Assembly (NCBI RefSeq): GCF_032818155.1
Contig: NZ_CP102590.1
Location: 496,001-560,000, forward strand
Source: Niallia taxi
GTDB lineage: Bacteria > Bacillota > Bacilli > Bacillales > Cytobacillaceae
Direction: 5' to 3'
Length of the DNA stretch: 64,000 bases
Below the pieces are notes generated by a model that saw only the letters and a list, made by a program, of their open reading frames with translations, did not search any database and had not been told where the DNA came from. The translations under genes were made by a program, and so were the position numbers. Positions 1 through 17,096 of this stretch are shown here, one piece after another; within the stretch, counting starts at the first letter, position 1, and the number at the start of each line of letters is the position of its first letter.

Positions 1-89
1 GTTATCTCCCAATCCTCATCTGTTTCATGTATCGGCAGGGCTGTACATGTCGAAAAAGCCTTTTTTGCATCAATTGAAATATTCCACAT
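1..89 (-). CDS. 5' end of an unidentified protein, cut by the window edge
   Basis: An open minus-strand frame runs off the left edge. The ATG at 89 is preceded by a GAGGT ribosome binding site at good spacing, so I prefer it to the in-frame ATG at 149, which has none. The visible start reads MWNISIDAKKAFSTCTALPI and then an acidic stretch. I do not recognise the family, and only about 29 residues are visible. Confidence 0.4.
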   Translation of the reverse strand, partial: MWNISIDAKKAFSTCTALPIHETDEDWEI

Positions 90-243
90 ATTATGACCTC
101 GTTTTTTATTAATGGGATTGCCGCAAAATACTATACATTCTACGGTCATATAAGGATAAAGTTTCTAGTATTCGGAAATTTTACATAAATTATTGTTTAT
201 CCACTTAAGTTAACTATAAAATAATTATGTAAACTTTCAATAT

Positions 244-278
244 CTATCACCCCAATAATCGTAACATTGGGGTGATAG
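244..278. terminator. Stable 13-bp hairpin, terminator-like
   Basis: The arms CTATCACCCCAAT (244-256) and ATTGGGGTGATAG (266-278) pair perfectly around a 9-nt loop. Neither side has a long T run, so it is either a weak terminator or a processing/protective structure between the edge gene and the small frame at 344-574. Confidence 0.4.
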
Positions 279-343
279 ATCACTTTGTCAGTCGTAATTC
301 TCGTTTACTTTCATTCTTAAACTTAGGCTTTTTTAAGACACTT

Positions 344-574
344 TTACTGTCCTGGCTGCTTTCTGCTGAAGCCCTTTATTTCATTCGTTTCCCATATCAA
401 ACGTGTTTCTTTCTCTCCGTCACTTAAGTAATAGACATTGTTGTTGATTATATTGCCGTTGCTTTGTTTAAAAGGGTTGCTGATAAGAAGCTTAGAGCTT
501 CCTGCTACCATTGTATTTTTTTCCATTTTATTTTGCTTTATTTTGTATTGGATGAGCAGCTGTCCACCATCCAA
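344..574 (-). CDS. Small hypothetical protein, doubtful
   Basis: This minus-strand frame of up to 76 codons opens with TTG at 574; in-frame ATGs follow at residues 17 and 22. No convincing ribosome binding site precedes any of them. A GGAGGAG motif about 30 nt upstream serves a different, short frame that overlaps the start, so a frameshift near 560 is possible. The product would be polar and asparagine-rich, without a signal peptide or recognisable motif. Real coding is uncertain. Confidence 0.25.
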   Translation of the reverse strand: MDGGQLLIQYKIKQNKMEKNTMVAGSSKLLISNPFKQSNGNIINNNVYYLSDGEKETRLIWETNEIKGFSRKQPGQ

Positions 575-676
575 AATTTAGTGACATTTTTATATGACAC
601 TCCTCCATGTTATACATTTCAGTTATTCTCCCGAATTTTTCATATTGCACCTAATTAAACTGAACTCACAAAAAAA

Positions 677-708
677 CGGCGCCATAAGCTGCTTAAGCTT
701 ATAACGCC
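677..708 (-). terminator. Terminator of the DUF917/DUF1177 operon
   Basis: GGCG..ATAAGC pairs with GCTTAT..CGCC and is followed on the minus strand by a run of seven Ts. It lies 7 nt past the stop of the last operon gene. Confidence 0.75.
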
Positions 709-714
709 TGTAAA

Positions 715-1659
715 TTAGTTTAGTTCCCCATTATCAATTATTCCGTTATCATCTATATAAACTGTTGGCTTCGTGACAACTCCATCAATATGTACACCTG
801 CAGCTATTGTTCCTCCGAATGTATTGTTACTGCCAAACGCTACATGGATGGTGCCATACACCTTTTCATCCTCAAGAACAACTCCTGTAATTCTGGCTTT
901 ATCATTTGTACCAATTCCAAATTCACATAGCAGTTTGCCATCTTCTTCCCCTAAAATGGCGAGGAGCTTTTCACTTTGTTCTCCCTCGGCCTTTATAATT
1001 CGACCATTTTCAATTGTCAGCAGGACAGGTGAGTCTAATCGGCCAATTCCTGCAATGGAGCCATCAATTAAAATTTGGCCAGCTGCACTTCCTTCTATTG
1101 GTGCAATATACGCTTCTCCTGATGGCAGATTACCTGATTCACCACTGTTTACATACATCCCAGTACTCGGAATCCCTTCGCGACCGTTTATGGAAAAGGA
1201 AAGGACATATCCGCCCTTTTCTATTTTGATACTATTCCCTTTTGACAATATGTCTGTATACTTTTCTGTTAGTGCTTTTACTTTTACATAATCTGCAGCG
1301 ATTGCACCCTCCAAAAACATGTCTTCTGTTATACCTGGCATTGTTGCAAGTCGTGCTCCTGCAGCTGCTGCATTTTTTCTTGCCTGTGTATGTGTCAAGG
1401 AATGCTGGGTCACACACACTACAACATCCGACCTGCTCATAGCTAGAGCAATCGGGGCTGGCGGTTCCTGTCCAGACTTGTCCCTTTCTTTCATCACAAC
1501 AAGCATAGCTTCTGCACCGAGTAATTTACCAGCTTCATATAAGGATTCAGCTAATTCCTTTTTTACATCATCAGCCACGACAAGGAAGCTTTCTCCCTTT
1601 CGTAAACCAAGACAGTTCACTAATACATTTTTACTGATTTCTACTAATCTTTCGCTCAT
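715..1659 (-). CDS. M29-type aminopeptidase-like metalloprotein
   Basis: A 314-residue protein resembling the thermophilic aminopeptidase T (M29) family, whose fold is shared with the 2,5-dihydroxypyridine dioxygenase NicX. Candidate metal ligands are Glu246 (EFGIGTN), Glu263, His272 (TIHVAFG), His290 and Asp292 (GVHID), spaced as in M29 enzymes. It is shorter than the usual ~400 residues and lacks the family's typical 'HWD' sequence. The ATG at 1659 follows an AGGAGG 7 nt upstream; an upstream extension would overlap the preceding gene. It is the last gene of a six-gene minus-strand operon, starting 13 nt after the AroM gene. Cytoplasmic; peptidase, cyclic-amide hydrolase or ring-opening roles all remain possible. 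Confidence 0.75.
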   Translation of the reverse strand: MSERLVEISKNVLVNCLGLRKGESFLVVADDVKKELAESLYEAGKLLGAEAMLVVMKERDKSGQEPPAPIALAMSRSDVVVCVTQHSLTHTQARKNAAAAGARLATMPGITEDMFLEGAIAADYVKVKALTEKYTDILSKGNSIKIEKGGYVLSFSINGREGIPSTGMYVNSGESGNLPSGEAYIAPIEGSAAGQILIDGSIAGIGRLDSPVLLTIENGRIIKAEGEQSEKLLAILGEEDGKLLCEFGIGTNDKARITGVVLEDEKVYGTIHVAFGSNNTFGGTIAAGVHIDGVVTKPTVYIDDNGIIDNGELN

Positions 1660-1672
1660 TGTAATCCTCCTA

Positions 1673-2344
1673 TTAAACAAGTTCTGCAACTAGCTTTGCC
1701 ATAATCGCATTAGACAATATAACTGGTAATCCAGTTGTATTTGCGACAATATCCCGTGCTTGCTCTGTATATCCCATACAATCGAGCAGGATAACGTCTA
1801 CATTGTCTTTTAATTCATTGGCAGCATGCACAAAGCTCTCTGTATCGCCTTCATATGGAGAAGCAACAGCAAAAGATGGATTCAATCCATATAGTGAGTA
1901 TTTCGGCTTTAAGTTCGTCTTTTGTTCTGGCAATGGAACAATTACGCCAAAACGTCTATGACCTACTAATGCTTTTGCTGTCGGCGGGATTATGTGATCT
2001 GGTTCAATTAAATAAGCGCTTTGTGTAGTGAGACCAGGAAACACTCCTGTGCAAAGCAACAGAATACTTTTAATCCCCTTGTTCTCTAAATAGTTAATTT
2101 TCTGCTGCAATATCGGCTTGATTTTCTCTCTTGACATGACAACAGATTCACCTGTTGTTAGTCTTGAGGTCAAAACATAATCATTTTCTTCCGGAAACAA
2201 GTTTTGCTCAATATATTCCTTTGTCATGCCATCCAGTACGCCAGCTTGAAGGAGTTCTGCTCGTCCATATAAATATTTTTCAAGAATTGGAGCAACATCC
2301 ACACGTGGAGCTTGTCCTATCGTTATCATCCCAAGTCGTTCCAT
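1673..2344 (-). CDS. AroM family protein
   Basis: About 223 residues matching the AroM family (Pfam AroM), named after the gene next to E. coli aroL and still without a defined reaction. The N-terminus MERLGMITIGQAPRVDV and the later LLLCTGVFPGL and DCMGYT motifs are typical; the two cysteine regions place it near the Asp/Glu racemase superfamily. Two adjacent ATGs follow GGAGGG; the second (2344) has the better spacing of 6 nt. It lies between the DUF1177 gene and the M29-like gene. With the racemase-like gene at the operon head, this operon carries two members of racemase-like families. Confidence 0.85.
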   Translation of the reverse strand: MERLGMITIGQAPRVDVAPILEKYLYGRAELLQAGVLDGMTKEYIEQNLFPEENDYVLTSRLTTGESVVMSREKIKPILQQKINYLENKGIKSILLLCTGVFPGLTTQSAYLIEPDHIIPPTAKALVGHRRFGVIVPLPEQKTNLKPKYSLYGLNPSFAVASPYEGDTESFVHAANELKDNVDVILLDCMGYTEQARDIVANTTGLPVILSNAIMAKLVAELV

Positions 2345-2368
2345 CATAACCCTCCATCTAAAGAAAAA

Positions 2369-2387
2369 GAAGAGGAATTTCCTCTTC
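2369..2387 (-). terminator. Small intra-operon hairpin
   Basis: GAAGAGGAA faces TTCCTCTTC just before a CTTTTTCTTT run on the minus strand, in the 51-nt gap between DUF1177 and AroM. The stem is short. It could lower expression of the two distal genes or protect the upstream mRNA. Confidence 0.3.
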
Positions 2388-2395
2388 CTCCTCCA

Positions 2396-3343
2396 TTATT
2401 GTTGTGACGCCTTTTCACCCATTGTTTGCAGCTTTTTCATAGAACCATAAAGCTCTGTTATTTGGCTGAATTCAGCATCACTATAAAACTGACACGTTCC
2501 ATTTGTTGCTTCCTTAGCTGTTTCCACAGCGAAGCGAACAGCATCTGCAATATCTGTTTCATGACTTGCTCCTGTTCCACAACCAGGAACAACCGATTGT
2601 GCTGTAATAGCTACCCCAACTACTGGTGCATCTGTCGCAACAGCTGGCTGAAGGATAGAGTTAATATGATAGAGTCCATTGCCGTATGGAGTTATATCCT
2701 GAACTGTAATCGGGAAGGTAACTGCAAATTGTCCTGTCGTCATTTCCATGATGCGCAGTAAGTCTTCGCTTACTCGCAGTATATATCCCTCTTTTACTGT
2801 TGGAGATATGGCAATGCCTTTATGGTTAATAACTCGGTTTCCTTTTGTCGTATCAATGGATAGAATGGCATCCATCTCAGAAGTTACTTCATGCTTATTC
2901 ATTGTTAAAATATCGACAGGTGAATCCATAAAATCAACTGGCTCATGCGGGCGAGTTGGCGCATCAGGACAAATATGTGTTGTAATAATAACATCTCCTT
3001 GAAGATGATCTCCCTTCACTTGCATGTCTGCCAGCTTTAAAGCAGAAGCGATTGCTGCAATTGCACCGTCTGCATCTGATACTAACCCAATTCGGCTTGG
3101 GCGTGCCCCAATGCCGCCAAGTCTTCCAATAATCCCAAACGTTGGAACAGTGCCACCGTTTGTTTTCCCATTTGTCCCAGGCACGAGGATTTTTATGAAG
3201 TCTGTGCTGCCTTTTTCGCCAGTAACAGTCGTAACCGTTACCTCGACATTTGAAAATTCAGAGAATAACCCCTTTACAATTTCTCCTGTTACATATGAAC
3301 TATCCAATGTTTCCAGTGCAAGCAATGTTTGTTTAAGTACCAT
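2396..3343 (-). CDS. DUF1177 family protein
   Basis: A 315-residue cytoplasmic protein that matches the uncharacterised DUF1177 family over its whole length. Visible family features are a Gly-rich segment (PGTNGKTNGG), the GIIGRLGGIGARP motif, a SDADGAIAA block, THICPDAPTRPHEPVDF, and a C-terminal VPGCGTGASHETD motif. His and Asp residues in these last two motifs could bind a metal; this is inference. The ATG at 3343 follows an AGGGG-type site. It sits 25 nt after the DUF917 gene within the operon. No reaction is established for the family. Confidence 0.85.
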   Translation of the reverse strand: MVLKQTLLALETLDSSYVTGEIVKGLFSEFSNVEVTVTTVTGEKGSTDFIKILVPGTNGKTNGGTVPTFGIIGRLGGIGARPSRIGLVSDADGAIAAIASALKLADMQVKGDHLQGDVIITTHICPDAPTRPHEPVDFMDSPVDILTMNKHEVTSEMDAILSIDTTKGNRVINHKGIAISPTVKEGYILRVSEDLLRIMEMTTGQFAVTFPITVQDITPYGNGLYHINSILQPAVATDAPVVGVAITAQSVVPGCGTGASHETDIADAVRFAVETAKEATNGTCQFYSDAEFSQITELYGSMKKLQTMGEKASQQ

Positions 3344-3368
3344 TTTTATTTTCCCCTTTCAAACTTTA

Positions 3369-4438
3369 TTAATAGATATATGGAATAATAGATTTATTAA
3401 TAATCCCCTCAATCGGCTTCATTAATTTTTCGTTGCTCATCGTTGTACTTAAAATTAATTTTTCCTTTGGAACGGAAATAACCGTTATGTTTTGGCCTTT
3501 TTCGATTGCTGCCGAAACAATTGGTTTTGCTGTTTTAGCATCCAAAGTCATAATTAAATCAGGGAATGTGCCAAAACGATCACCGTTTTTTTCAATTGTC
3601 ATATATTCATTCCAAAAGGTTAATTCATATGAGTTATTTATTGTTATTGTTCCAATATCAAAACCGCCAGTCGTTTCCAGCACAAAGTCTGTGACAGTAC
3701 CTTCAGCAACAACCTTGCCGCCAAGTTTGTTCACGACTGCTGCGATTGCTGCTTCCCCTTTGTTACTTAGCAGTGCTTCACCTACCGCTACCGCCTGCTG
3801 AATAGCTCCTGCAGCGCCATTTTGCTTGGCATATGCAACAGTTACCGGATTTCTCGCAACAGCCAAAAGTCCGCCAGCTTCAATGGAGGCTTTTCGAACG
3901 ACTGTAGATACCTTGTCAAGCGAGCCTGCGAGGCTTAATTCCATATAATCTGGACCCTTGCCGCCAACTGCAGCTTGGTAGGAAATATAGTCTGTTTGTT
4001 CTGATAAATTCATTGAGCCCATTGATCCAGTTGGATGTGCGCGACCGTTGCAGGGAATATCAACTACCGGGATTCCTGTAACAGCTGATTGAAACCAGCC
4101 GTTAACAGTCGTGCCTGCTCCATTTTCATTTGTGATGATGCCTTTTATGTTTTTCCAACCCTTTGAGTCAGGATTTCTAATGCTTTGGCATAATGGATTG
4201 GTTTTACATACTTATCCTTTGCTGCAGGTGCTCCAACAAGTGAGACTGTTACAAGTAAATCCTCATCTTTAAGACTATCTATCGTTATCAGCTCTGGCTG
4301 GCCAACCTCAAAGGCAAGCTTTCCAATTTGCAGACCGTCTTCAATCCAGCCACCACCGCCGCCGCCAAGAATAGCTCCACCGTATACGGCATATTCGACC
4401 GTTTTTTCATCAATGATTATTTTTGACAATGTACTCAC
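3369..4438 (-). pseudogene. DUF917 (S-methyl thiohydantoin desulfurase-like) gene with a frameshift
   Basis: Two frames encode the halves of one ~357-residue DUF917 protein. The N-terminal half (from ATG 4438) contains the Gly-rich GGAILGGGGGGW motif and stops at a TAA near 4144. The C-terminal half continues in another frame with NENGAGTTVNGW, GIPVVDIPCNGRAHP and later blocks. Adding one A to the AAAAA run at about 4148-4152 restores a continuous family sequence (QRVGKNIKGIITNENG). The family's N-terminal domain is associated with hydantoin-type substrates. It begins one base after the OPT transporter stop codon. It may be a real mutation or a homopolymer error in assembly; no canonical slippery heptamer is present. 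Confidence 0.8.
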
Positions 4439-4439
4439 C

Positions 4440-6062
4440 TCATTTTCCTAACTTAAATACTGAACTGAAGAAGCTGTAAATCGCGTCACCTGCGATAAAC
4501 CCTGCTGCAAGAATACTCATAGATGCATCCGCTTCTTGTCCTTTTGCTTTTCTCCAAATAACGCGGATAATAATCCCTGCTAATACAGCAAAGCCTGCAT
4601 ATGGTGTTGTGATAAGTAAGCCTGTCGCAAATAAAATTCCTAATTGTCTGCTGGGACCACCAATTAATTGCAGGATAGCTCCTGGAATTGCCCATATTAA
4701 TAATTGTTTAGCTACTTCCAGTGATGTGCCTGCTTGGATTGTAGAAACATATACAGCATCAACTGGCGGCACTAGATTTTGTGCGAAATAACCTTTATAA
4801 GTGAAAACAACTGTTAGAAGAGCAATCCCAAAGGCTATCATTGCCGTAATATATTGCTGCTCTCTGCCTTTCTTTTCATACTCTCTGTCCTTGCCATGCC
4901 CTCTTAAAATATGGCCTGCTTTAAAGTCATAACCCATATCAGCAAATGCTGGACCTGTCGCTGCACTGAATCCTGCAAGTAATGCAAGTGCAACTGGCGG
5001 GAAGCCGATCATCATTCCAATTAGTAAGGTAATAAAGGCAACAGCAAACGCTGGGAACCAACCAGAATGCATTGCTGCAATTCCTACGATTAATTCATGA
5101 ACAAATGCTGCAAAGGCTGCAAAAAATAAGAAGCCGATAAACATGCCTGGTGACATGTCTGTCACAATCCCTCCTGTGATTGCAATAATTAGAGCTACTA
5201 CAACATACGCTAAAAACCCTAAGCCTAACGCCCTTTTCGCTTCCTTTATTGGACGAGTATATTGTGAATCATCTGATAATTCTATCGATGCTGCTACTTC
5301 TGGATTACTAGATTTCTTTGATGGCTTGTCTTTCGAAAAGATCAGGATAGATACCTGTACTAATGCTACTAAGCCTGCACCAATCATAAGGCCATGTGGA
5401 ATATATAATGCATTGACATCAACACCAAAGAAGGGAACGGAATATTGGCGGAACAACAAACCGATACCGAACATTGTTAGTGCCCAAATATTACCGATAA
5501 ATGCTACACCGAAAGCCGACATTGGAATATGAAGGAATGCACCTATTATTCCAATTCCTGTACCTACACCTAGAAGCCCAGCTCTTTTTCCACCTTTATC
5601 ACCAGCAAGAATTGCTTCCGCAGTCGCTGCTCCAGGTGCCCATGTACCTTTTGCTGGGAAAAGCTTGGAATCGAATAGTTTATATAGCACAGCTGCATCA
5701 ACAAACATTGCTAAGGCCGCACCAATAAGCATTGGAATAATTAACTCTGTATTACCCATCAAAAACGGTATACCAATTGGGATTAGCAAGCTGTTGGCTG
5801 CACCAAAGGTTGCTGACGAGATGGAAGTTTGCACTAAATTTTGACGATGAATTGACTTATATTTTTTAAAGATTGTAATCGGAATTCTAGCAATAAGCAT
5901 GGCAATAAGTGCACCAATGATAGATGTGTTTGGAGTTACTCCAAGTGTTGTAATTATTTGCATACCAATGATGGCACCAAAAATAGCTGTAACAGATGTT
6001 AAAATAAGTGCAACTGGTTCAAAAATTCGTGGATGTTTTGGTTCATTATGATTGTTTTTCAC
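4440..6062 (-). CDS. OPT/YSL family oligopeptide transporter
   Basis: A 540-residue integral membrane protein with roughly 14-16 hydrophobic segments. It opens with PRIFEPVALILTSVTAIFGA and contains SAATFGAANSLL-like, GTWAPGAATAEAI and GPAFADMGYDFKAGHILRG blocks, characteristic of bacterial members of the oligopeptide transporter (OPT) superfamily. These carry small peptides or related amides into the cell by proton symport. The ATG at 6062 is preceded by TAGGAGG. It follows the racemase-like gene and precedes the DUF917 gene by one base, so uptake and catabolism are co-expressed. The substrate is unknown. Confidence 0.9.
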   Translation of the reverse strand: MKNNHNEPKHPRIFEPVALILTSVTAIFGAIIGMQIITTLGVTPNTSIIGALIAMLIARIPITIFKKYKSIHRQNLVQTSISSATFGAANSLLIPIGIPFLMGNTELIIPMLIGAALAMFVDAAVLYKLFDSKLFPAKGTWAPGAATAEAILAGDKGGKRAGLLGVGTGIGIIGAFLHIPMSAFGVAFIGNIWALTMFGIGLLFRQYSVPFFGVDVNALYIPHGLMIGAGLVALVQVSILIFSKDKPSKKSSNPEVAASIELSDDSQYTRPIKEAKRALGLGFLAYVVVALIIAITGGIVTDMSPGMFIGFLFFAAFAAFVHELIVGIAAMHSGWFPAFAVAFITLLIGMMIGFPPVALALLAGFSAATGPAFADMGYDFKAGHILRGHGKDREYEKKGREQQYITAMIAFGIALLTVVFTYKGYFAQNLVPPVDAVYVSTIQAGTSLEVAKQLLIWAIPGAILQLIGGPSRQLGILFATGLLITTPYAGFAVLAGIIIRVIWRKAKGQEADASMSILAAGFIAGDAIYSFFSSVFKLGK

Positions 6063-6123
6063 TTAAATCCTCCTAAGTTACCGAAAATGTTCTTTCTATT
6101 ACGTTGTTAAGGCACAATCTAAA

Positions 6124-6795
6124 TTACAAGAAGCCTGCTTGAGATGAAACAGATGGAACTGACTTTTTCAATAAATAAGAAGCAAACAAGCCTTCTGCTT
6201 CAACTGCATCAATCACTGGAATATTTAAGCTTTCTCTCAATTCTGCTGCAAGTCCGATTGTCGAAAAGCCTGTACATGCAAATACAATAGCTTCAGCACC
6301 GAGACTTATAAGATGCTCTGCTGCTTCAATTCCACTTTGTTTTCCTTGAGGTGTTAATAAATCCGTAGTATTTGTCACGCCATCAGGTCTTTTATAACCA
6401 ACAAGCAACGAACTCAGTAAATCTTCCACTACTGCAGGAGCATTATTAGTAATGCCCATTACCCCAACTGGTTTACCTATAGATAAAGCGGTAAGTGCAG
6501 CAGCACTTCCTGCTCCGATTACTGGAATTGATACTGCTTTTCGAAGCTCTTCAATAGCTGGGTCTGCTGCACAGCTAATTACCAGCACCTTTGAGCCTTC
6601 TCTTTCTAGCTCTTTGCCCAATTCCACAATTTTGGGGATTGCATGTGCTTCTGTTTCTTCATTAAATATTCCAAGGGGTTGATCTTGTATACATTTGCTT
6701 ACTGTAGGTATATTACTAGTACTTGTGATTACCTTTCCGTGTTGATTTAATATCTCTTTATTATCAGTCGTAAATACACGAATAACTCCTATCAT
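6124..6795 (-). CDS. Aspartate/glutamate/hydantoin racemase-like protein
   Basis: A 223-residue cofactor-independent racemase family protein. The two catalytic cysteines of the fold are visible: Cys75 in VISCAADP and Cys174 in VFACTGFSTIG. Overall similarity is to the Asp/Glu/hydantoin racemase group. Family members invert the alpha carbon of amino acids or hydantoins. I chose ATG 6795 because GAGGT lies 7 nt upstream; the GTG at 6804 overlaps that site. It is the first gene of the operon, 61 nt ahead of the OPT transporter, which suggests that a D- or racemic substrate is imported and converted. Confidence 0.85.
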   Translation of the reverse strand: MIGVIRVFTTDNKEILNQHGKVITSTSNIPTVSKCIQDQPLGIFNEETEAHAIPKIVELGKELEREGSKVLVISCAADPAIEELRKAVSIPVIGAGSAAALTALSIGKPVGVMGITNNAPAVVEDLLSSLLVGYKRPDGVTNTTDLLTPQGKQSGIEAAEHLISLGAEAIVFACTGFSTIGLAAELRESLNIPVIDAVEAEGLFASYLLKKSVPSVSSQAGFL

Positions 6796-6825
6796 GACAA
6801 TCACCTCTTCATCTTGTTCTATTAA

Positions 6826-6870
6826 TTGATTGAATATAAAGAATTATTATAATTTTAAGTATTTAATCAA
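6826..6870 (-). promoter_or_regulatory. Candidate operator ahead of the catabolic operon
   Basis: TTGATTGAATA (6826-6836) and TATTTAATCAA (6860-6870) form an inverted repeat with one mismatch across an AT-rich core in the promoter region of the racemase gene. It is a plausible binding site for the PucR regulator encoded upstream; that link is inference. Confidence 0.3.
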
Positions 6871-6904
6871 CCTTTTACAATGTTCCCAAAAACCAAAAAT
6901 AAAT

Positions 6905-6937
6905 AAAGCTCGTTGTGCTCTGAGCACAACGAGCTTT
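6905..6937 (-). terminator. Terminator of the PucR gene
   Basis: A near-perfect 16-bp inverted repeat (AAAGCTCGTTGTGCTC and its complement) begins two bases beyond the pucR stop codon and separates that gene from the downstream operon. T-rich sequence follows on both strands, so it could act in both directions. Confidence 0.85.
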
Positions 6938-6938
6938 T

Positions 6939-8459
6939 TCAATTTGGATTTTTAAACAAATAATAAAAAATGCATAAATAGTAAACAAATTTCTCTCGAA
7001 AGCTTGCTATTTTAATGTTTGCGACCTTTTCTATCTTATCCATCCGGTATTTAACAGAATTGCGATGGATATACAAAAGGTTTGCAGTTTCCACTAAACT
7101 TCCATCTGTTGTCAAATAATAGAATAAAGTTTTAACTAGATCTGTATTATTTTCCTTATCATATTGACAAAGCTTGCCAATCTTCATTTCTACTACTTCA
7201 TCCATATTTACATAATCAGAGGCATCAAGCAATAAATTAAATACTTCCATTTCTTCATATGTGAAGAGATGCTGTGTTAAATCTAAGCTGGAACCAAGTA
7301 GTATAGCTTTACGAGCTTGAATGAAGCTGTGCTGTACCTCCCATAGGGCTGCTTCTGTTCCAACACCAATCCTTATCTCTTTAAATTCAGTAAGAATCGG
7401 AGTAAATAATTCCTTCCACTTTTCCACAGTCCCATCTTTCGCTTGAAAAGAAAACAACAGCACTATTCTGTTTGCTTGCAAATGAATATGCATGCACGAC
7501 TTTTTAAAATACAAAGCAAAATGCCGCTTTATCTCAGTCTCCATTTTCTGAAATAAAGCATGATTATCTTCCATTTCTGTTTTATTTTCCAAAACCATAA
7601 TTCTCCACGAGATATCAGGGTTCAAGCCTAGTTGCCTTCCTTTGTTCATTACTTCTTGCTTGGTAAGCGGCAGTCCGGTTAACAGCTCCTCAATAAAACT
7701 GCCTCTGAGCTTTCTTTCTGTGTCAATCGCTGTTTTTCTTCGCATTAGTTCTAATGCAAATACTAATCTAGCCTGTTCAACACATACCATATCTAAGTCG
7801 TCAAGATTGTCTCTTTCAATATAAAGCTTCCCGACAATTTGTTTATCCACGGTAATTTCCCAGCACCTTATGTCAGCGAAAGCAGGGTTACTCTCTTCTT
7901 GCGGGGCAGACACAATCGTATTCCCTTTTCTGTCTAGCAGCCATATCGGCGATTTTAATAGTCCGGACACATTATCTGCTACAGTTTGTATCCCGCTGTT
8001 TTCTAGTACTAACGTTGTTAGTTTCTTGTATAATTCTTCTGACCTTCTCAGCAAGTAGGTTTGTTTATCAATTAACAGCTCCATAACAGCATTCGTAATA
8101 TCAATATATGGTATCTCTGTTGGAAGCTCAATGATTGGCAGGTTGGAATCATTGCTTATCTGCAGCATCTCCTCTGGCAAATCCTGCAAATATCTTTCTC
8201 GTTTTATCGCTAATGCAGCAGCATCCGCTTGAGCTAAATGCTGCACTAAGTTTGATAGCAGCTTAGTATCGTGACGTATAGCATAAGCAGTAGTCAGCAA
8301 GAGCTCTCCCTCTCTTAACCAACCCTTTATATCAGGCACTTCCATAATGTCGAGATAACGAACCATTCTGTTTAAGCCCTTTTCACCGCTTATTACCTTC
8401 GCATCCTTTAAGACCGGCAGACGAAGCAACTCATTGATTGTTATTCCTACTGAGTTCAT
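6939..8459 (-). CDS. PucR family transcriptional regulator
   Basis: About 506 residues with the PucR layout: an N-terminal purine-catabolism-type ligand domain (ITINELLRLPVLKDAKVISG, EVPDIKGWLREGELLLTTAY), a central GGDEF-like region, and a C-terminal helix-turn-helix (DGSLVETANLLYIHRNSVKYR) close to the end. Such proteins usually activate catabolic genes in response to the pathway substrate. ATG 8459 is preceded by AGGTGA at proper spacing; the GTG at 8468 overlaps that site. It lies upstream of, and codirectional with, the DUF917/DUF1177 operon but is separated by a strong terminator. It is the likely activator of that operon (inference). Confidence 0.9.
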   Translation of the reverse strand: MNSVGITINELLRLPVLKDAKVISGEKGLNRMVRYLDIMEVPDIKGWLREGELLLTTAYAIRHDTKLLSNLVQHLAQADAAALAIKRERYLQDLPEEMLQISNDSNLPIIELPTEIPYIDITNAVMELLIDKQTYLLRRSEELYKKLTTLVLENSGIQTVADNVSGLLKSPIWLLDRKGNTIVSAPQEESNPAFADIRCWEITVDKQIVGKLYIERDNLDDLDMVCVEQARLVFALELMRRKTAIDTERKLRGSFIEELLTGLPLTKQEVMNKGRQLGLNPDISWRIMVLENKTEMEDNHALFQKMETEIKRHFALYFKKSCMHIHLQANRIVLLFSFQAKDGTVEKWKELFTPILTEFKEIRIGVGTEAALWEVQHSFIQARKAILLGSSLDLTQHLFTYEEMEVFNLLLDASDYVNMDEVVEMKIGKLCQYDKENNTDLVKTLFYYLTTDGSLVETANLLYIHRNSVKYRMDKIEKVANIKIASFREKFVYYLCIFYYLFKNPN

Positions 8460-8580
8460 ATATGTCACCTATTCTATTTATTGAATTTTAGAAATATTAT
8501 AGCAGAAAACTATGTTTTATGTATAACCGGGTAAGTAATATATTCACTTCATTAATAGAGAGTATGGCTTGTAATTTGAG

Positions 8581-8798
8581 TCCGTTTCATTGCGCTGCAC
8601 CCACTCGCTTTCCGCGGGGAGGAAGATGAGCCTCCTCGGCTTCGCCTGCGGGGTCTCATCCTTTCCTCTATTTCCCGCAGGAGTCGAGTGGCCTCCGCTC
8701 CATTCCACTAATATTTCCTGAATATTGAATCAAAACAAAAAACAGCAAAATAAAAAAGAACTATCAATCAAAATGATTAGATAGTTCGGTTTCAACAT
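8581..8798 (-). repeat. Dispersed terminator-bearing repeat, copy A
   Basis: Read on the minus strand, it begins 8 nt after the mhqD stop with the hairpin AACCGAACTATC...GATAGTTC. It continues with TAGTGGAATGGAGCGGAGG and the GC-rich palindromic core (GAGGAGGCTC, CCCCGCGGAAAGCGAG), and ends with GCGCAATGAAACGGA. The same order of blocks occurs in copies at 32374, 39708 and 59171. This copy lacks the outer AAAGAGGCTGGGAC end. Confidence 0.8.
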
Positions 8799-8806
8799 TC
8801 TACTTC

Positions 8807-9412
8807 TTAAAATACTTTCTTATACCACTCCGACGCTGCTTCTACTTCTGTTGGGGTAAGGGAATGTCCGCGGTTTTCCCAGTGGATTTCAACATTCGCA
8901 TTTGCATTTTGCAATAATGATTCAAGCTCTCCAGATTCTAGCGGCGAGCAGATTGGATCATTTGTTCCTGCAGTTATGAATACAGATTTTCCTGCTAAGT
9001 CGGGCAGGTCTATTCCTCTTCTTGGAACCATCGGATGGTGAAGGATAGCGCCTTTTAATGCATCTTTGTTATGAAATAATAAGCTTGCGGCGATATTGGC
9101 TCCATTTGAGTAGCCAATCGCTACTATATTATGGCGGTCGAATTCATATTTTGCTGCTGCTTCATCTAAAAAGCTGTTCAGTTCACTTGTTCTAGCAACC
9201 AAATCCTCCTCATCAAAAATACCCTCTGCTAATCTGCGGAAAAATCTTGGCATACCGTTTTCCAATACATTGCCACGGACACTTAACACAGAAGCCTGAT
9301 CATCGATTATGCCTGCAAGCGGCAGCAAATCTAATTCAGTTCCACCAGTACCATGTAGCAGCAATAATGTGGGTCTTTGAGAATCTGTTCCTTTATTAAA
9401 TATATGTTTCAT
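8807..9412 (-). CDS. mhqD: MhqD-like carboxylesterase (alpha/beta hydrolase)
   Basis: A 201-residue alpha/beta hydrolase of the phospholipase/carboxylesterase type. The triad is visible: Ser102 in GYSNG, Asp152 in AGTNDPICSP and His183 in RGHSL; LLLHGTGG forms the oxyanion region. Its ATG overlaps the stop of the ring-cleaving dioxygenase gene by one base (TAATG), with GGAGGAG inside the end of that gene, so the two are translationally coupled. In B. subtilis MhqD belongs to the MhqR regulon for quinone and aldehyde stress, and the same operator type is present here. The exact ester substrate is not known. Confidence 0.85.
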   Translation of the reverse strand: MKHIFNKGTDSQRPTLLLLHGTGGTELDLLPLAGIIDDQASVLSVRGNVLENGMPRFFRRLAEGIFDEEDLVARTSELNSFLDEAAAKYEFDRHNIVAIGYSNGANIAASLLFHNKDALKGAILHHPMVPRRGIDLPDLAGKSVFITAGTNDPICSPLESGELESLLQNANANVEIHWENRGHSLTPTEVEAASEWYKKVF

Positions 9413-10356
9413 TATTTTTCTCCTCCAATTGAACGCACTTCTACTTTTGGTAATGCTTCTTCTAATTCTTCTCTTTTTGACTCCAACCAGTCTGGCAGCA
9501 TAAGCTTATTTCCAAGCTCTTCTAAAGGCTCATCAGCAGTAAAGCCTGGCGGGTTTGTTGCTATTTCAAACAGGATGCCGCCTTCCTCGTGAAAATACAA
9601 GGCCTTAAAGTAATTGCGGTCACGTATCTCTGTTGGATAATAGCCTTTCTCCTGCAGCAATGCGCGCCATTTATGCAATTCTTCCTCATCTTCAGCTCTC
9701 CATGCTATATGATGGACAGTGCCTGCACCCATCAAGCCGCGATTGGATGGGTTAAGCTGAATATCAATGATATTTCCTAGGTCCCCTCTAGATCTGAAGC
9801 GGATAATTTCATCTTGTTGACCGACAAATTCCAATCCTAATATTTCTTCGAGCACTTCCTTTGTTTTATGTGGCCGCGCAGAATACAATACAGCTCCACC
9901 AAAGCCTTTTATTGCATGTTCTGCTGTTATTCCTGCTGTGCTCCATGTGTTTATAGGACCTTCTTTTCTTTCCACAAGCTCTAATTGCAGTCCATCTGGA
10001 TCACTGAACTTGATTGTCTTCTCACCGAAACGCACGAATGATGTTAACTCTATTCCGTATTTTTTTAAACGACTTTCCCAAAATGTGGCTGAACCGATTG
10101 GAATAACATATTTAGTTATTCCGACTTGCCCTGTACCGACTCTTCCCTTCAGCTGCTTTTCCCACGGAAAAAAGGTAATGACAGTGCCAGGGTCTCCTGT
10201 TTCATTGCCGAAATATAAATGGTAAACCTCGGGGCGATCAAAATTAACCGTCTTTTTTATCAGCCTTAACCCAAGTACGCCTGCATAAAAATCAATATTG
10301 CGCTGTGCATCATTAACCATTGCTGTTATGTGGTGAATACCTAATGTTTTCGTCAT
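9412..10356 (-). CDS. mhqO: Ring-cleaving dioxygenase, MhqO/MhqA type (VOC family)
   Basis: A 314-residue two-domain vicinal-oxygen-chelate protein. The N-terminal module begins with LGIHHITAMVNDAQRNIDFY; the second has GTVHHIAWRAEDEEE near residue 220 and a ligand Glu in ILFEIATNPPG. These His and Glu residues match the metal ligands of extradiol-type hydroquinone dioxygenases. B. subtilis MhqA, MhqO and MhqE detoxify quinones and are repressed by MhqR. It is first in a two-gene operon with mhqD. Which Mhq paralogue it matches best cannot be settled by eye, so the symbol is provisional. Confidence 0.85.
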   Translation of the reverse strand: MTKTLGIHHITAMVNDAQRNIDFYAGVLGLRLIKKTVNFDRPEVYHLYFGNETGDPGTVITFFPWEKQLKGRVGTGQVGITKYVIPIGSATFWESRLKKYGIELTSFVRFGEKTIKFSDPDGLQLELVERKEGPINTWSTAGITAEHAIKGFGGAVLYSARPHKTKEVLEEILGLEFVGQQDEIIRFRSRGDLGNIIDIQLNPSNRGLMGAGTVHHIAWRAEDEEELHKWRALLQEKGYYPTEIRDRNYFKALYFHEEGGILFEIATNPPGFTADEPLEELGNKLMLPDWLESKREELEEALPKVEVRSIGGEK

Positions 10357-10403
10357 TTCCTTTACCTTCTTTCCGTGTTTTGACCAGACATAATTTTTAT
10401 AAT

Positions 10404-10430
10404 TATCTCGAATTCGAGATATTATCCCAA
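10404..10430 (-). promoter_or_regulatory. mhq promoter with perfect MhqR operator in the spacer
   Basis: TATCTCGAATTCGAGATA (10404-10421) is a perfect 18-bp palindrome matching the published B. subtilis MhqR operator consensus. On the minus strand it overlaps a promoter with -35 TTGGGA (10425-10430), 17-nt spacer and -10 GATAAT (10402-10407), so a bound repressor would block RNA polymerase. Confidence 0.8.
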
Positions 10431-10455
10431 AAAAATTTATTACTATTAATTAAAA

Positions 10456-10473
10456 TATCTTGAATACAAGATA
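10456..10473. promoter_or_regulatory. Second MhqR-type operator
   Basis: TATCTTGAATACAAGATA is a palindrome with a central mismatch. It shares the outer half-sites of the first operator and lies 52 bp upstream of it, close to five helical turns, on the same face of the DNA. Confidence 0.65.
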
Positions 10474-10551
10474 ATAATAATCGATAAACTTATGAATGTC
10501 AATAAGAAAAAAGAAAAAGGAAGATTTCTTATTGTTGTTACACCAATAAGA

Positions 10552-10770
10552 TCACTCCCTTAACGTTAATGGAATAATTTCAGCAATACTCATGAAGTAA
10601 CCGCTGCGAAATCCCCAAACATCATCATTGCCAATAAAATGATAATTCAGCTTCTTTAATAACTCTTCTGTCTCTGCTTTTGATTCTGATAGGCTGAGCT
10701 TATATTCTTCAATTAACCGCTCATTCTCTCCCCTTATTTCGTAATTAGTGAATAATATAGTATAAGACAC
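10552..10770 (-). CDS. Small hypothetical protein
   Basis: A 72-residue cytoplasmic protein starting at GTG 10770, which follows GGGGG at 8-nt spacing; longer versions have no such site. It has an acidic helical middle (NERLIEEYKLSLSESKAETE) and a C-terminal segment ending EIIPLTLRE. No family recognised. It is divergent from the response regulator gene and alone in its orientation. Confidence 0.5.
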   Translation of the reverse strand: MSYTILFTNYEIRGENERLIEEYKLSLSESKAETEELLKKLNYHFIGNDDVWGFRSGYFMSIAEIIPLTLRE

Positions 10771-10942
10771 GCAAATTTCCCCCTGTAATATAAACAATAA
10801 GTTATTTTCTTTTACTGTGATTCCAATATAGCCTTGCAAAGTAAACTCAATATAAACATTGTGTAGGAAATAATTGATTTTCAGTTTACATTTCAACGCT
10901 AAAATCTTTTATGTCATAATAGTTATATGGAGGAGCTCAATT

Positions 10943-11617
10943 ATGTTTAAAATATTAGTGGTTGAAGATGATGTGAATACAAGAAAGCTGATGTGTGCTG
11001 TATTAAAGCAGTACGGCTTCGATGCTTATGCTGCGGAGGATGGCATCTCTGCACTTCACTTTATGGAAAGTCAGCATGTTGATTTAGTGGTGCTTGATTT
11101 AATGATGCCAAATATGGACGGCTATGAATTAACAAGACAGCTCCGGTCCTCATGGGAGCATCTGCCTATTTTAATGGTTACAGCAAAGCAGGAACCAAAC
11201 GATAAAAAACAAGGGTTTCTTGCTGGTACAGATGATTATATGACAAAGCCAGTCGATGAAGAGGAAATGGTACTGCGTATTAAAGCATTGCTTCGCAGAG
11301 CCCAAATAGCAAGTGAGCATAAACTGACAGTTGGTAAATCTGTCTTAGATTATGATGCTTTGACTGTTTCAAACAGAGATACTGTGATTGCATTGCCTCC
11401 AAAGGAGTTTTATCTTTTGTTTAAGCTGCTTTCCTATCCGAACATGATTTTTACACGTATGCAGCTGATGGACGAAATTTGGGGACTCGAATCAGAAACA
11501 AATGACCGCACATTAAATGTTCATATTAATCGGTTGCGGGACAGGTTTAAAGATTGGTCTGACTTTGACATTGTGACTGTCAGAGGTCTTGGCTACAAGG
11601 CTGTGAAAAGAGCATGA
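10943..11617 (+). CDS. OmpR-family response regulator (HssR-like)
   Basis: A 224-residue regulator: receiver domain with Asp9-Asp10, phospho-acceptor Asp52 (VVLDLMMPNMDGY) and a conserved Lys in MTKPVD, followed by an OmpR/PhoB winged helix (PPKEFYLLFKLLSYPN, RTLNVHINRLRDRF, VRGLGYK). ATG 10943 has GGAGG upstream. The C-terminal half resembles heme-responsive HssR-type regulators, but no hrtAB-like heme exporter lies in the window, so the signal is unknown. Its stop overlaps the kinase start (ATGA), so the pair is coupled. Confidence 0.9.
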   Translation: MFKILVVEDDVNTRKLMCAVLKQYGFDAYAAEDGISALHFMESQHVDLVVLDLMMPNMDGYELTRQLRSSWEHLPILMVTAKQEPNDKKQGFLAGTDDYMTKPVDEEEMVLRIKALLRRAQIASEHKLTVGKSVLDYDALTVSNRDTVIALPPKEFYLLFKLLSYPNMIFTRMQLMDEIWGLESETNDRTLNVHINRLRDRFKDWSDFDIVTVRGLGYKAVKRA

Positions 11618-12651
11618 GGGAGTTCTTTAAAAAAAGGTTAAGCCTTGCTATAACATTAGTTATTTTTGTATTTTTTGTGTTTTTGGCAACATTTATTATT
11701 GCACTAGCTATTACTATCTTTTTAAACTATATAGGTTATGTAAAACATAGTGATATGACAAAAGCCCTTCCCTTCTTTGGTTTTGTCGGCTTTTGCATAT
11801 TGCTTGGTACTTCACTGACGGCTTTTCTCAGTAAAAAAGCATTAAATCCGATACGAACCGTTATTGATGCTACACATAAGGTGGCAGATGGCGATTTTTC
11901 AGTAAAGGTTAATATAAAGGGCATTGGCGAATTGGAGGAGCTTTCACAAAGCTTTAATAAGATGACTTATGAACTTTCTAGTATTGAGACATTAAGAAGT
12001 GATTTCGTCAATAATTTCTCTCATGAATTTAAAACACCAATCGTTTCAATCCGGGGATTTGCTAAGCTCTTAAAGGAAAATAATTTGACAGAGGAAGAAC
12101 GGCAAGAGTATCTACATATTATCATGACAGAATCAGAGCGTCTTGCTGCTCTATCTACAAATGTACTTGCATTATCAAAATATGAGCACTCAGAAATTAT
12201 TTCGGATAAGATGCCGTTTAGGTTAGATGAACAAATTAGAAAAACAATTGTTCTGATGGAGCCAAAGTGGTCAGCAAAAGATATCACTGTAAATGTGGAA
12301 TTGGACAATGTAACCTTCAGCGGCAATGAAGATTTAACACAACAAATATGGGTTAATTTAATTGATAATGCCATTAAATTTTCCCATAACGGCAGCGCAA
12401 TTCATATTAGTCTTAGTAATAAGACTGATAAAATTGAATTTGCCATTCAAGATGACGGCATCGGGATGGACAGCCAGACAAAAGCTCGTCTTTTTGATAA
12501 ATTTTATCAAGGAGATATCTCTCATGCAAAACAAGGAAACGGGTTAGGACTTTCCCTTGTCAAACGAATTGTCCAGCTATGCAGTGGGACCATTTATGTA
12601 GAAAGCGCAAAGGATGAAGGCAGTAAATTCACCATCATCCTTCCAAAATAA
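11614..12651 (+). CDS. Sensor histidine kinase, partner of the preceding regulator
   Basis: A 345-residue membrane kinase with two N-terminal transmembrane helices (about 10-40 and 52-73) and only a very short external loop, followed by a HAMP domain (NPIRTVIDATHKVADGDF), the H-box His137 (NNFSHEFKTP), an N-box (WVNLIDNAIKFS), and G-boxes DDGIGMD and GNGLGLSL. The near absence of an extracellular sensor domain suggests sensing within the membrane or from inside. It ends at a bidirectional terminator shared with fbpB. It phosphorylates the regulator encoded immediately upstream (inference from coupling). Confidence 0.9.
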   Translation: MREFFKKRLSLAITLVIFVFFVFLATFIIALAITIFLNYIGYVKHSDMTKALPFFGFVGFCILLGTSLTAFLSKKALNPIRTVIDATHKVADGDFSVKVNIKGIGELEELSQSFNKMTYELSSIETLRSDFVNNFSHEFKTPIVSIRGFAKLLKENNLTEEERQEYLHIIMTESERLAALSTNVLALSKYEHSEIISDKMPFRLDEQIRKTIVLMEPKWSAKDITVNVELDNVTFSGNEDLTQQIWVNLIDNAIKFSHNGSAIHISLSNKTDKIEFAIQDDGIGMDSQTKARLFDKFYQGDISHAKQGNGLGLSLVKRIVQLCSGTIYVESAKDEGSKFTIILPK

Positions 12652-13010: not shown

Positions 13011-13397
13011 TTCTCATTAATATCTTACTGGATAGAATGGAAAAATTCAACTTTTTCACGATGGATTTGGCAAATACCATTAATTTTACTTTTCACAAAT
13101 ACAGCTGTAGAGCAGCAGATAAAGAACTCTATTTATTTTCGAAACCAATAAAAGATTCAGGAATCGCATAAAACTACTTCATGTAAAGGTTGGAGTGCTT
13201 CTATTTATTATCATGTGGAACTAGCCTCCTGAGAAAAAAAGTCGTTTATCCCCCCTTTTCCCCGCTATTTTTACTTTTATTAATTACTATAATGCTAATT
13301 TGTTAAACTTCTCACAAATTTAATTTATAATATACCTATAATAACTAATAATAAAAGAACGAAGAGATTTATAATTTGTCTTGAAGGAGATTTATGA
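13011..13397. other. Gene-free stretch
   Basis: AT-rich DNA between the Fur box and the HxlR gene. It holds a 44-codon plus-strand frame at 13037-13171 without a ribosome binding site, and probably the promoter of the HxlR gene, for which no convincing hexamers were found. Confidence 0.4.
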
Positions 13398-14927: not shown

Positions 14928-15827
14928 TTATTGATTGTCGCCGAATAATATTTCCTTAACTTGCTCAACAGGCATATCAACACCTGTAAACAGCTTAAAT
15001 CCTAAAGCTCCTTGCCATAACATCATTCCTAAACCGTTAATAGCTGTTGCACCAGCCTCTTCTGCCTGTGCCAACAATTTAGATTTTTGCGGGTTGTAAA
15101 CAACATCTGTTACGACTAAGTCCTTACGAAGCACATCCAACGCATCGTCAATAATACTTAAATGATCGAGCGGCTTCATGCCAAGGCTTGTACCATTAGC
15201 AAGTATTGCACTTTCTGCTACTTCACGACGGAATGCTTCTTTATCTTCTAGTGGAAACAGATTAGCTTTTACACCGAATTGCTTCATTTCCTTATTAATA
15301 TAATCTACGTTTTCCTCAGCTTGAACGAAGAACGCATCATTACGAGCGAAAATGCTGATTTCTTTTATACCTGATTGCACTAACTGGATTGCGATTGGTG
15401 TCGCAGCACCGCCAGATCCAACGAGTGTTACTTTTTTGCCTTCAAGTGTTACTCCATGTTCCAATAAATTCTTCACATATCCTTGTCCATCTGTATTGTA
15501 GCCTATTAATTTGCCGTCACGGTTCACTACTGTATTGCTGGCACGAGCATATTTTGCAGAATCATCTAGTTCATCCAAGTACTCTAACACCTTCATTTTA
15601 TTAGGCATAGAAACATTGAAGCCTGCCGCTCCTGCTGCTTTTAAGCCTTTAACTGTTGCTTCTAACTCATCATTGCCAACTTCGAATGCAAGATAAGCAT
15701 AGTTTAGATCTGTTAAAGTGTATGCAAGATTATGCATGCGTGGTGACAAACTATGACCGATTGGTGTTGCAAGCAATCCTACTAATTTTGTTTTTCCATC
15801 GATATTTTTTTCATGTACGTTAGACAT
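14928..15827 (-). CDS. aroE: Shikimate/quinate dehydrogenase (YdiB-like)
   Basis: A 299-residue AroE family enzyme. Substrate-site residues Ser26 and Ser28 (HSLSPR), Lys77 (MPNKMK) and Asp113 (NTDGQG) are present, and the dinucleotide-binding loop is GSGGAAT near 137. It ends with GLGMMLWQGALGFKLFTG. Length and context match YdiB-like quinate/shikimate dehydrogenases, which in E. coli also lie with ydiM/ydiN transporters and a dehydroquinase. It starts 48 nt after the MFS gene and ends 25 nt before aroQ. Direction of flux (utilisation) is inferred from the operon. Confidence 0.9.
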   Translation of the reverse strand: MSNVHEKNIDGKTKLVGLLATPIGHSLSPRMHNLAYTLTDLNYAYLAFEVGNDELEATVKGLKAAGAAGFNVSMPNKMKVLEYLDELDDSAKYARASNTVVNRDGKLIGYNTDGQGYVKNLLEHGVTLEGKKVTLVGSGGAATPIAIQLVQSGIKEISIFARNDAFFVQAEENVDYINKEMKQFGVKANLFPLEDKEAFRREVAESAILANGTSLGMKPLDHLSIIDDALDVLRKDLVVTDVVYNPQKSKLLAQAEEAGATAINGLGMMLWQGALGFKLFTGVDMPVEQVKEILFGDNQ

Positions 15828-15875
15828 ATAAGCAATCTCCCTTATTTCATAAATTTGTATTTTTATAATTAACTA

Positions 15876-17054
15876 TTAAGCAAATATTTTTTTAAATCTG
15901 CTTAATACATATACAGCAAGAAGAACACTGATTACGGCGATAACCATATCAAATACTAAAGTCATTGATATGCCAGCAGAACCTACTAAACTACTTGTAA
16001 TTATTGGAACAAGTATAAAGGATGCACTTGAAGCAATATTTACATATGAGGATGCAGTTGCTTTGTTTTTTGGGAACAGCTTCATCATAATACTTAATGC
16101 TAATTGCAGAATTCCTGATGTAAACAGACCCATTAAGAATGTACAAACCAGAACAATTCCATAAGAATTCACCATGAACAGAACAAGCATGGAGATAAAT
16201 GCGCCGATTGGATAAACAATCGCCACCATAATTGGTGAGATGAATTTGTCTAATACAACAGCTAGTAACAATACAGATACAAGTGCACCAATACTGAAGT
16301 AAGAAAGCAATTGCACCGCTTGACTTGAATCAAGACCAATAAATTGTTTACCTAGCTGCGGCAGCCATGTTTGCCATACTACGAATAGTGCTGTTGATGT
16401 AAATCCTAGTAAAATAACGGCAATCCCTTCCCCTGCAAACTTTGGCTGAGCCTTAAACACAGTTTCAGCGACACCGTCTGCTTTTGTTACATTTTTATGG
16501 TTTGGGAAAGGCATAAATATTAAGTAAATGCCAGTTAGTAAATATAAAACGCCAAGTCCAAAGAATGTCCAGCCCCAGAAAATATGATTAGCTACTAGGA
16601 TTGCCATAATAAATGGCAGCAATGTTGCACCGATTGATACCGATGCTTTCACTAATACAGAAGCAGAGCTTGCTTTTTTCGGGAATGACTCGGTTAAGGC
16701 TGGATATGTTCCAGAGTCAAGCAGCGAATTGGCAATACCAGCTGATATCGCAAAGATAAATGCTACGACATAATTAGTTGTCGTTGGGACACCAATTAAA
16801 AAGACAAGATAAAGGAAGTTAGCTGTTATAATAACTGGCTTTCTCCCTAATTTGTCGGAAAGACGCCCGACAAAAAACAAAGCAATCAATTTCCCAATTC
16901 CGATCGCTGATACGAGCAGACTTATTTGTCCAACAGTAACTGCGTATCGTTCTGAAAGATTATCCATATTGGAGGCGATGATAATATTGATCATGCCGAG
17001 CATGAAGTAATTCATATACATTCCAAATGATGACTTAATATAAGGATTTTTCAT
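15876..17054 (-). CDS. MFS transporter, YdiM/YdiN type (quinate/shikimate)
   Basis: A 392-residue major-facilitator protein with twelve predicted membrane segments; the loop motif GRLSDKLGRKPV follows TM2. It is a close paralogue of the next upstream gene (shared N-terminal SFGMYMNYFMLGMINIIIAS pattern, LLDSGTYPALTESF block). Similar proteins neighbour aroE/ydiB genes in other bacteria. Likely imports quinate, shikimate or a related cyclohexane carboxylate. It sits third in order from the aroQ end, in one operon controlled by the LacI-type operators upstream. Confidence 0.85.
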   Translation of the reverse strand: MKNPYIKSSFGMYMNYFMLGMINIIIASNMDNLSERYAVTVGQISLLVSAIGIGKLIALFFVGRLSDKLGRKPVIITANFLYLVFLIGVPTTTNYVVAFIFAISAGIANSLLDSGTYPALTESFPKKASSASVLVKASVSIGATLLPFIMAILVANHIFWGWTFFGLGVLYLLTGIYLIFMPFPNHKNVTKADGVAETVFKAQPKFAGEGIAVILLGFTSTALFVVWQTWLPQLGKQFIGLDSSQAVQLLSYFSIGALVSVLLLAVVLDKFISPIMVAIVYPIGAFISMLVLFMVNSYGIVLVCTFLMGLFTSGILQLALSIMMKLFPKNKATASSYVNIASSASFILVPIITSSLVGSAGISMTLVFDMVIAVISVLLAVYVLSRFKKIFA

Positions 17055-17096
17055 TTTTACACTCCTAAATACAAAAGCTTATTTTCTGATAAGTAA

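Follow-up and report, generated by a model that had tools for sequence, protein, structure and literature searches.

A recurrent DUF1177 operon in Niallia taxi that may import and dismantle cyclic dipeptides

We analysed a 64,000-nucleotide stretch of DNA from Niallia taxi (contig NZ_CP102590.1, positions 496,001 to 560,000; G000:C2:496001-560000 in our numbering; hereafter, the window), part of a genome of 5.29 Mb in three contigs. Between positions 715 and 8468 of the window, on the minus strand, lie a gene for a PucR-family regulator and a unit of six genes encoding, in order, a racemase-family protein, an OPT transporter, a DUF917 protein, a DUF1177 protein, an AroM-family protein and an M29-like protein (Table 1). 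Pfam searches recovered all seven of these families, as an earlier note on this DNA had proposed. Comparison across genomes supports the conclusion that the operon is a conserved, codirectional import-plus-catabolism unit, recurring in Bacillota, in Pseudomonadota and on a haloarchaeal plasmid. On balance, we favor the reading that it imports and dismantles cyclic peptide amides, of which cyclic dipeptides (2,5-diketopiperazines) are the likeliest; both the substrate and every reaction are inferred. Cyclic dipeptides occur widely, are not readily cleaved by ordinary peptidases, and can function as antibiotics and as signals. In the proposed route, the OPT transporter would import the ring; the racemase-family protein and AroM would invert stereocentres, making mixed D/L rings usable; a metal-dependent hydrolase would open the ring, with DUF1177 the likeliest candidate and DUF917 an alternative or a second ring hydrolase; and the M29-like metallohydrolase would then split the linear dipeptide. 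In some relatives a flavin-dependent cyclodipeptide oxidase (CDO) is added to the same operon, which PucR would regulate. The copy in this genome would be a reduced version, since no CDO gene was found and the DUF917 gene is broken.

We compared the neighbourhoods of DUF1177 genes in two sets of loci. The nearest set comprised the top 80 among at least 571 genome-contig stretches with a match, and is biased towards close relatives. For the second set, 348 genomes were drawn from the window's phylum; 36 of these, including this genome, were positive for DUF1177, leaving 35 loci, several on stretches that were short or ended by contig edges. Neighbours were counted with hidden Markov models built from the 80-locus set, using a 40-bit cut-off, on the same strand and within 8 kb. 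AroM accompanied DUF1177 in 77 of the 80 nearest loci and 21 of the 35 phylum-draw loci; the corresponding counts were 54 and 14 for the M29-like protein, 52 and 12 for OPT, 46 and 19 for the racemase, 45 and 16 for PucR, and 44 and 16 for DUF917. Less frequent companions were the dipeptide ABC permease DppB (23 and 8), DUF6092 (11 and 2), an S51 peptidase (10 and 0), an M20 peptidase (9 and 5), HyuA (8 and 0), and an NCS1 permease of nucleobase/hydantoin type (5 and 0). On the opposite strand, we found no AroM, M29-like, OPT or DUF917 gene in either set, the racemase and PucR each in none of the 80 and one of the 35 loci, and NCS1 in two of the 80. The co-orientation is therefore more than chance would give, given that AroM was on the same strand in 77/80 loci and on the opposite strand in 0/80. 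DUF917, DUF1177 and AroM followed one another consecutively in 39 nearest and 12 phylum-draw loci, and the full six-gene set was present in 27 and 11, or 25 and 8 when PucR was also counted. The neighbourhood check proposed in the earlier note thus found the codirectional set in both samples, across Bacillota, Pseudomonadota and a haloarchaeal plasmid.

Two positions in the operon vary. A peptide-type importer, either OPT or a dipeptide ABC transporter, was present in 74 of the 80 nearest loci. The peptidase slot is filled by an M29-like, S51 or M20 protein, and among the loci scanned S51 never occurred together with the M29-like protein; the sole S51 protein tested (from L038) scores as dipeptidase PepE. 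Five loci (L048, L059, L067, L070 and L072) carry DUF1177 with an NCS1 permease, HyuA, DUF917 and a carbon-nitrogen hydrolase, and look like a hydantoin-type variant. At the level of whole genomes, DUF1177 and AroM were each found in 35 of the 347 other draw genomes (a few AroM matches being weak) and shared 27, as compared with 3.5 expected (Fisher P 4e-26, a value that is overstated because genomes share ancestry). DUF1177 was present in 8 of the 13 genomes of the window's genus. Among 14 control genomes, it matched only in Haloferax volcanii and Sulfolobus acidocaldarius, both of which also match DUF917. A conjugative plasmid of Klebsiella pneumoniae carries a compact version flanked by transposase genes (L119, 3559-8966: IclR regulator, OPT, DUF1177, AroM, PepE and racemase), and a plasmid of the haloarchaeon Salinigranum carries an ABC transporter, DUF917, DUF1177, AroM and an aminopeptidase that matches the M29-like profile, with an Asp/Glu racemase further along.

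A CDO pair, consisting of a nitroreductase-like protein and a DUF6092 (PF19585) protein, joins the operon in 11/80 nearest and 2/35 phylum-draw loci. In L012, the only CDO-containing locus checked with Pfam, the small protein matched PF19585 (E 3e-27), the family given for CDOB in the available text of PMC11055893, and the two open reading frames (ORFs) overlap at 13050-13072; known CDO pairs overlap by 20-30 nt, according to the accessible part of PMC11760959. The order in Niallia circulans (L013) is PucR, racemase, OPT, DUF917, DUF1177, AroM, M29-like, a further nitroreductase and the CDO pair. This second nitroreductase gene, flanked by the M29-like gene and the CDO pair, lies at 11683-12540 in L013 and at 11612-12532 in L012, where its product is NfsA-like but does not reach the NCBIfam cut-off. 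DUF6092 was found in 3 of the 13 genomes of the window's genus, each time about 3.2 kb downstream of DUF1177, and in 9 of the 348 phylum-draw genomes, at ten places, two of which are in L191 and L217. For the eight DUF6092 loci lacking an adjacent DUF1177 gene, we used a looser 30-bit cut-off, leaving M29-like matches of 63-80 bits uncounted; DUF917 was present in six, DppB or NCS1 in seven, and an M29-like match above 300 bits or M20 in seven. Since DUF6092 loci without DUF1177 still hold DUF917, an importer and an M29-like or M20 peptidase, these genes and the CDO form one toolkit, to which DUF1177 and AroM belong in many lineages. The earlier note had proposed a small cyclic or amidic substrate. 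A cyclic amide or cyclic dipeptide fits that description, and because the importers are mostly peptide-type and the accessory CDO pair recurs, free hydantoins or purines seem to us less likely than cyclic dipeptides.

The racemase-family protein belongs to the Asp/Glu racemase superfamily (PF01177, 90.9 bits against a cut-off of 31), and its best structural match is PDB 2eq5, a hypothetical hydantoin racemase (E 3e-85). Its C78 and C177 are invariant in all 24 aligned sequences (the window's plus 23 of 43 representatives, from 51 found). AroM has the same two-cysteine arrangement at the superfamily positions, with C99 and C190 invariant in 25/25 sequences (the window's plus 24 of 71 representatives, from 101 found), and its profile matched 2eq5 with an E-value of only 0.0017. 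NozR, an Asp/Glu racemase homologue, catalyses the inversion of cyclo-Trp-Trp, for which Cys-75 and Cys-179 are required (PMC10156859, available text). Given the retained cysteine pairs and the activity of NozR within the same superfamily, epimerisation of cyclic dipeptides by the racemase-family protein and AroM would be chemically reasonable.

The window's DUF1177 protein shares 97-99% identity with proteins assigned to Niallia taxi, and 97% with that of the N. taxi locus L009. Its structure model (pLDDT 88.9, pTM 0.91) matches the fold of clan MH zinc peptidases (Foldseek, VIA-align 2); the prediction for DUF1177 is a fold of this type whose active site is altered. The His-x-Asp and Glu-Glu sequences, which we take to be the metal and catalytic motifs of clan MH zinc exopeptidases, do not appear to be retained; R74-L75-G76 and C125-P126-D127 occupy the expected places, as mapped by eye from the order of elements and without coordinates. 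We aligned 71 sequences including the window's (120 proteins found and 75 representatives kept, from which L007 and L027 were then omitted, and L118 and L120 removed before folding). D90, D92 and D164 are invariant (71/71) and H261 is present in 68/71; these residues could be remaining metal ligands. A sequence search against solved structures gave no credible match for DUF1177. A stronger proposal, which we put forward tentatively and with clearly less confidence than the overall reading, is that DUF1177 is an unrecognised diketopiperazine ring opener built on a remodelled zinc-peptidase fold, at the core of a cross-domain pathway for cyclic-dipeptide nutrition in Bacillota, Pseudomonadota and haloarchaea, sometimes carried on plasmids.

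The M29-like protein was aligned with 33 of 37 representatives (61 found). E182, E246, H272, H290 and D292, which we take to be at the positions of the M29 metal ligands, are present in 34/34 sequences and line up with those of PepS and AmpT. The protein is probably a metallohydrolase with a full M29 metal site, and a putative aminopeptidase. Its predicted fold is NicX-like, yet the M29 metal site is complete. A NicX-like ring-cleaving dioxygenase, which the fold suggested, was considered and rejected, as two of the four iron ligands are absent. The iron ligands of NicX, a 2,5-dihydroxypyridine 5,6-dioxygenase, are His265, Ser302, His318 and Asp320 (PMC7910607, available text); in the M29-like protein E246 and A274 stand in place of His265 and Ser302, and only H290 and D292 match, so that the iron site is not of NicX type.

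The DUF917 gene is split between two frames, with a 97-aa piece at 4145-4438 that ends in a stop and the remainder elsewhere (a 217-aa ORF at 3369-4022 plus upstream residues). Across 8.6 kb the window is 95.4% identical to L009; of the five insertions or deletions between 650 and 8500, the sole intragenic one is the absence of a single base from an A-run at 4154. DUF917 is a single ORF of about 350-360 aa in seven loci of the same genus (L002-L008) and in L009, whose intact copy has both Pfam domains. We found no other PF06032 locus in the window's genome. The base may truly have been lost, or the short A-run may have been misassembled. Thus, of the six tightly packed genes described in the earlier note, the spacing stands (gaps of 1-61 bp from the racemase gene to the M29-like gene, setting aside the break), but DUF917 is not one gene here. 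In 36 of the 80 nearest loci, some of which end at contig edges, the 8 kb around DUF1177 showed no DUF917 gene; since such loci are common, the remaining gene set can exist without it. It is possible, though we think it doubtful, that the operon is decaying in this strain and may be non-functional, with a broken DUF917 gene and no CDO found, or that the break is an assembly error. The single coding indel, its position in an A-run, the lack of a second PF06032 locus in the genome, and the retention of the other members in loci without a nearby DUF917 gene are consistent with such an explanation, which is compatible with any of the readings of the pathway; decay is harder to reconcile with the remaining operon genes, which are open and have no coding indel relative to L009.

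Several observations weigh against the cyclic-dipeptide reading. Hydrolysis by DUF1177 is not assured, since the usual Glu-Glu appears to be absent (position 126 is Pro in 71/71 sequences and position 127 is not conserved) and the fold is shared with non-enzymes such as the transferrin receptor. Profile-profile comparison of DUF1177 with 19 M42 and 12 M28 proteins gave nothing, with an alignment of low diversity (Neff 2). No recognised importer was found in 15, and no AroM within 8 kb in 14, of the 35 phylum-draw loci, some of which sit amid housekeeping genes; five loci without most of the usual neighbours (L190, L192, L195, L197 and L214) had housekeeping genes or branched-chain-type ABC ATPases, and gave no clue to a pathway. 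The exchange of peptidases tracks lineage, the S51 loci seen being from Pseudomonadota, and so does not represent many independent events. Co-occurrence of DUF6092 and DUF1177 at the genome level is weak (3/9, P 0.05), with the two on different contigs in one genome (G341). We found no PF19585 match, and thus no CDO pair, in the window's genome, where DUF917 is also broken. Lastly, 5/80 nearest loci join DUF1177 to a hydantoin-type set of NCS1, HyuA and carbon-nitrogen hydrolase.

This last variant bears on an alternative that we consider improbable, namely that the operon serves catabolism of a hydantoin, thiohydantoin or cyclic imide. DUF917 would open or desulfurise the five-membered ring, the racemase and AroM would invert the hydantoin stereocentre, and DUF1177 or the M29-like protein would remove the carbamoyl group. 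NCBI models relatives of DUF917 as thiohydantoin desulfurases, and the intact N. taxi copy scores 301 bits against that model (NF058529); however, the equivalog cut-off is 440 bits. Similarly, the proximity of the racemase to 2eq5 and the NCS1-HyuA-hydrolase variants would suit a hydantoin, but none of the seven proteins encoded at 715-8468 matched a hydantoinase or HyuA, DUF917 was not found in the vicinity of many DUF1177 genes, and the importers are predominantly peptide-type. A further alternative is the use of ordinary linear peptides, or of dipeptides containing D-amino acids (e.g. cell-wall-derived or isoaspartyl), which OPT and Dpp would import, peptidases cleave and racemases convert from D to L. 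We regard this as slightly less probable again. It would account for the OPT and Dpp importers, the S51 and M20 peptidases, the PepE score of the L038 protein and the complete M29 metal site, but it leaves unexplained the CDO and DUF917, both tied to the toolkit even where DUF1177 is absent, as well as the presence of two racemase-superfamily proteins per operon. Purine or allantoin catabolism, suggested by the names PucR and racemase, was rejected as the principal reading and seems very improbable: the PucR N-domain and a match of the racemase profile to an allantoin racemase structure (E 6e-8) point that way, but PucR-type regulators govern many pathways, the importers are peptide-type, and no allantoinase or ureide gene was found among the operon proteins and ten other window proteins scanned. 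Import and breakdown of cyclic dipeptides therefore remains the reading we prefer.

Taken by themselves, the terminator-like hairpins at the two ends of the operon suggest that the likely transcription unit consists of the six genes without PucR (Table 1). The earlier note had placed PucR upstream of the operon, and it is there, but the 15-pair hairpin separates it from the six-gene unit. Terminator-like sites numbered 13 in the region 400-9000, as compared with a mean of 6.5 (sd 3.1) in shuffles. Promoter-like sites were not enriched (19 found, 24.5 expected from shuffles), making the one at the racemase gene suggestive only. The OPT assignment is clear (PF03169, 100.7 bits against a cut-off of 25.8). 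An Rfam scan of window positions 1-12000 gave no match. The operon may be on a megaplasmid: the label '(plasmid) [Niallia taxi]' is attached to a DUF1177 protein of 97% identity on a 1.32-Mb contig, and the window's own protein is listed with a contig of 1.44 Mb. Elsewhere in the window, on the minus strand, we noted a reverse transcriptase that also has an HNH endonuclease domain and is probably encoded by a group II intron (55444-57255); a shikimate dehydrogenase-like gene beside an MFS transporter and a second ORF that starts alike, a possible quinate/shikimate uptake unit (14928-18299); and a ketopantoate reductase-like gene adjoining an acetoacetate decarboxylase-family gene (36867-38665).

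Table 1. Features of the PucR gene and the six-gene unit, in window coordinates.
Feature	Position	Strand	Evidence
PucR-family regulator (PucR N-domain, GGDEF-like, HTH_30)	6939-8468	minus	PF07905 E 2.8e-37, PF13556 E 2.5e-14
Terminator-like hairpin, PucR/operon boundary	6905-6937	minus	15 pairs, T-rich tail; consensus scan
Promoter-like site, weak, immediately 5' of racemase gene	6852-6880	minus	9/12 consensus
Asp/Glu/hydantoin racemase-family protein	6124-6804	minus	PF01177 E 1e-25
OPT-family transporter	4440-6062	minus	PF03169 E 1.1e-28
DUF917 / S-Me-THD-like gene, frameshifted	3369-4438	minus	PF20906 (C-terminal domain) E 3e-29
DUF1177 protein, 315 aa	2396-3343	minus	PF06675 E 1.3e-138
AroM-family protein	1673-2347	minus	PF07302 E 2.4e-72
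M29-like protein, 314 aa	715-1659 (ORF 715-1689; start probably 1659)	minus	PF02073 E 1e-8
Terminator-like hairpin at operon end	678-708	minus	13 pairs, T-rich tail; consensus scan

We found no bacterial route for eating cyclic dipeptides in the literature searched. Searches for a cyclic-dipeptide hydrolase gave one caprolactam paper or none, a weak negative, and a search for DUF1177 by name gave one unrelated paper, with none for PF06675; most subscription papers lie outside the scope of these searches. If the proposed route is correct, the operon would assign roles to DUF1177, AroM, DUF917 and this family of M29-like proteins.

Several components resemble known systems in part. DUF1177 shares its predicted fold with the clan MH zinc exopeptidases (M28, M42, M20 and M17), but we detected no sequence relationship to them, and the Glu-Glu, judged by eye, is apparently absent. 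The M29 aminopeptidases AmpT, AmpS and PepS are about 410 aa long, as compared with about 315 aa for the M29-like protein, which matches them weakly in sequence (Pfam E 1e-8) and has a fold closer to that of NicX. The ATP-dependent caprolactamase/hydantoinase HyuA/HyuB is absent from the window's operon, although HyuA neighbours DUF1177 in 8/80 loci; the available part of PMC6061476 speculates that some such genes encode cyclic dipeptide hydrolases. NozR, the diketopiperazine stereoisomerase of nocardioazine biosynthesis, shares with the racemase-family protein and AroM a superfamily and a cysteine pair, which is catalytic in NozR, and acts on a cyclic dipeptide; it is biosynthetic and from an actinomycete (PMC10156859, available text), and the likeness is drawn by superfamily and not by sequence comparison.

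The closest precedent is the group of CDO clusters without a CDPS (PMC11055893; Nat Commun 2024). The earlier note knew of no described route with this gene set, a claim that does not hold as worded, since the accessible text of this article lists most of the families as enriched around non-biosynthetic CDOs (racemase, DUF917, AroM, OPT, dipeptide ABC and EamA, along with unspecified peptidases), leaving their role open, with purine metabolism or natural-product synthesis put forward in one section. That text does not mention DUF1177, does not name M29 in the relevant section, and does not propose dietary use of cyclic dipeptides. Conversely, the copy of the operon in this genome differs from those clusters in having no CDO that we could find. 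The gene company is thus largely in print already; in the searched literature we did not find DUF1177 or the M29-like protein placed in this company, nor an account of their folds and residues or of how importers and peptidases replace one another. If our reading is correct, it would help to explain why most CDO operons (88% in the part of PMC11055893 available) have no synthase.

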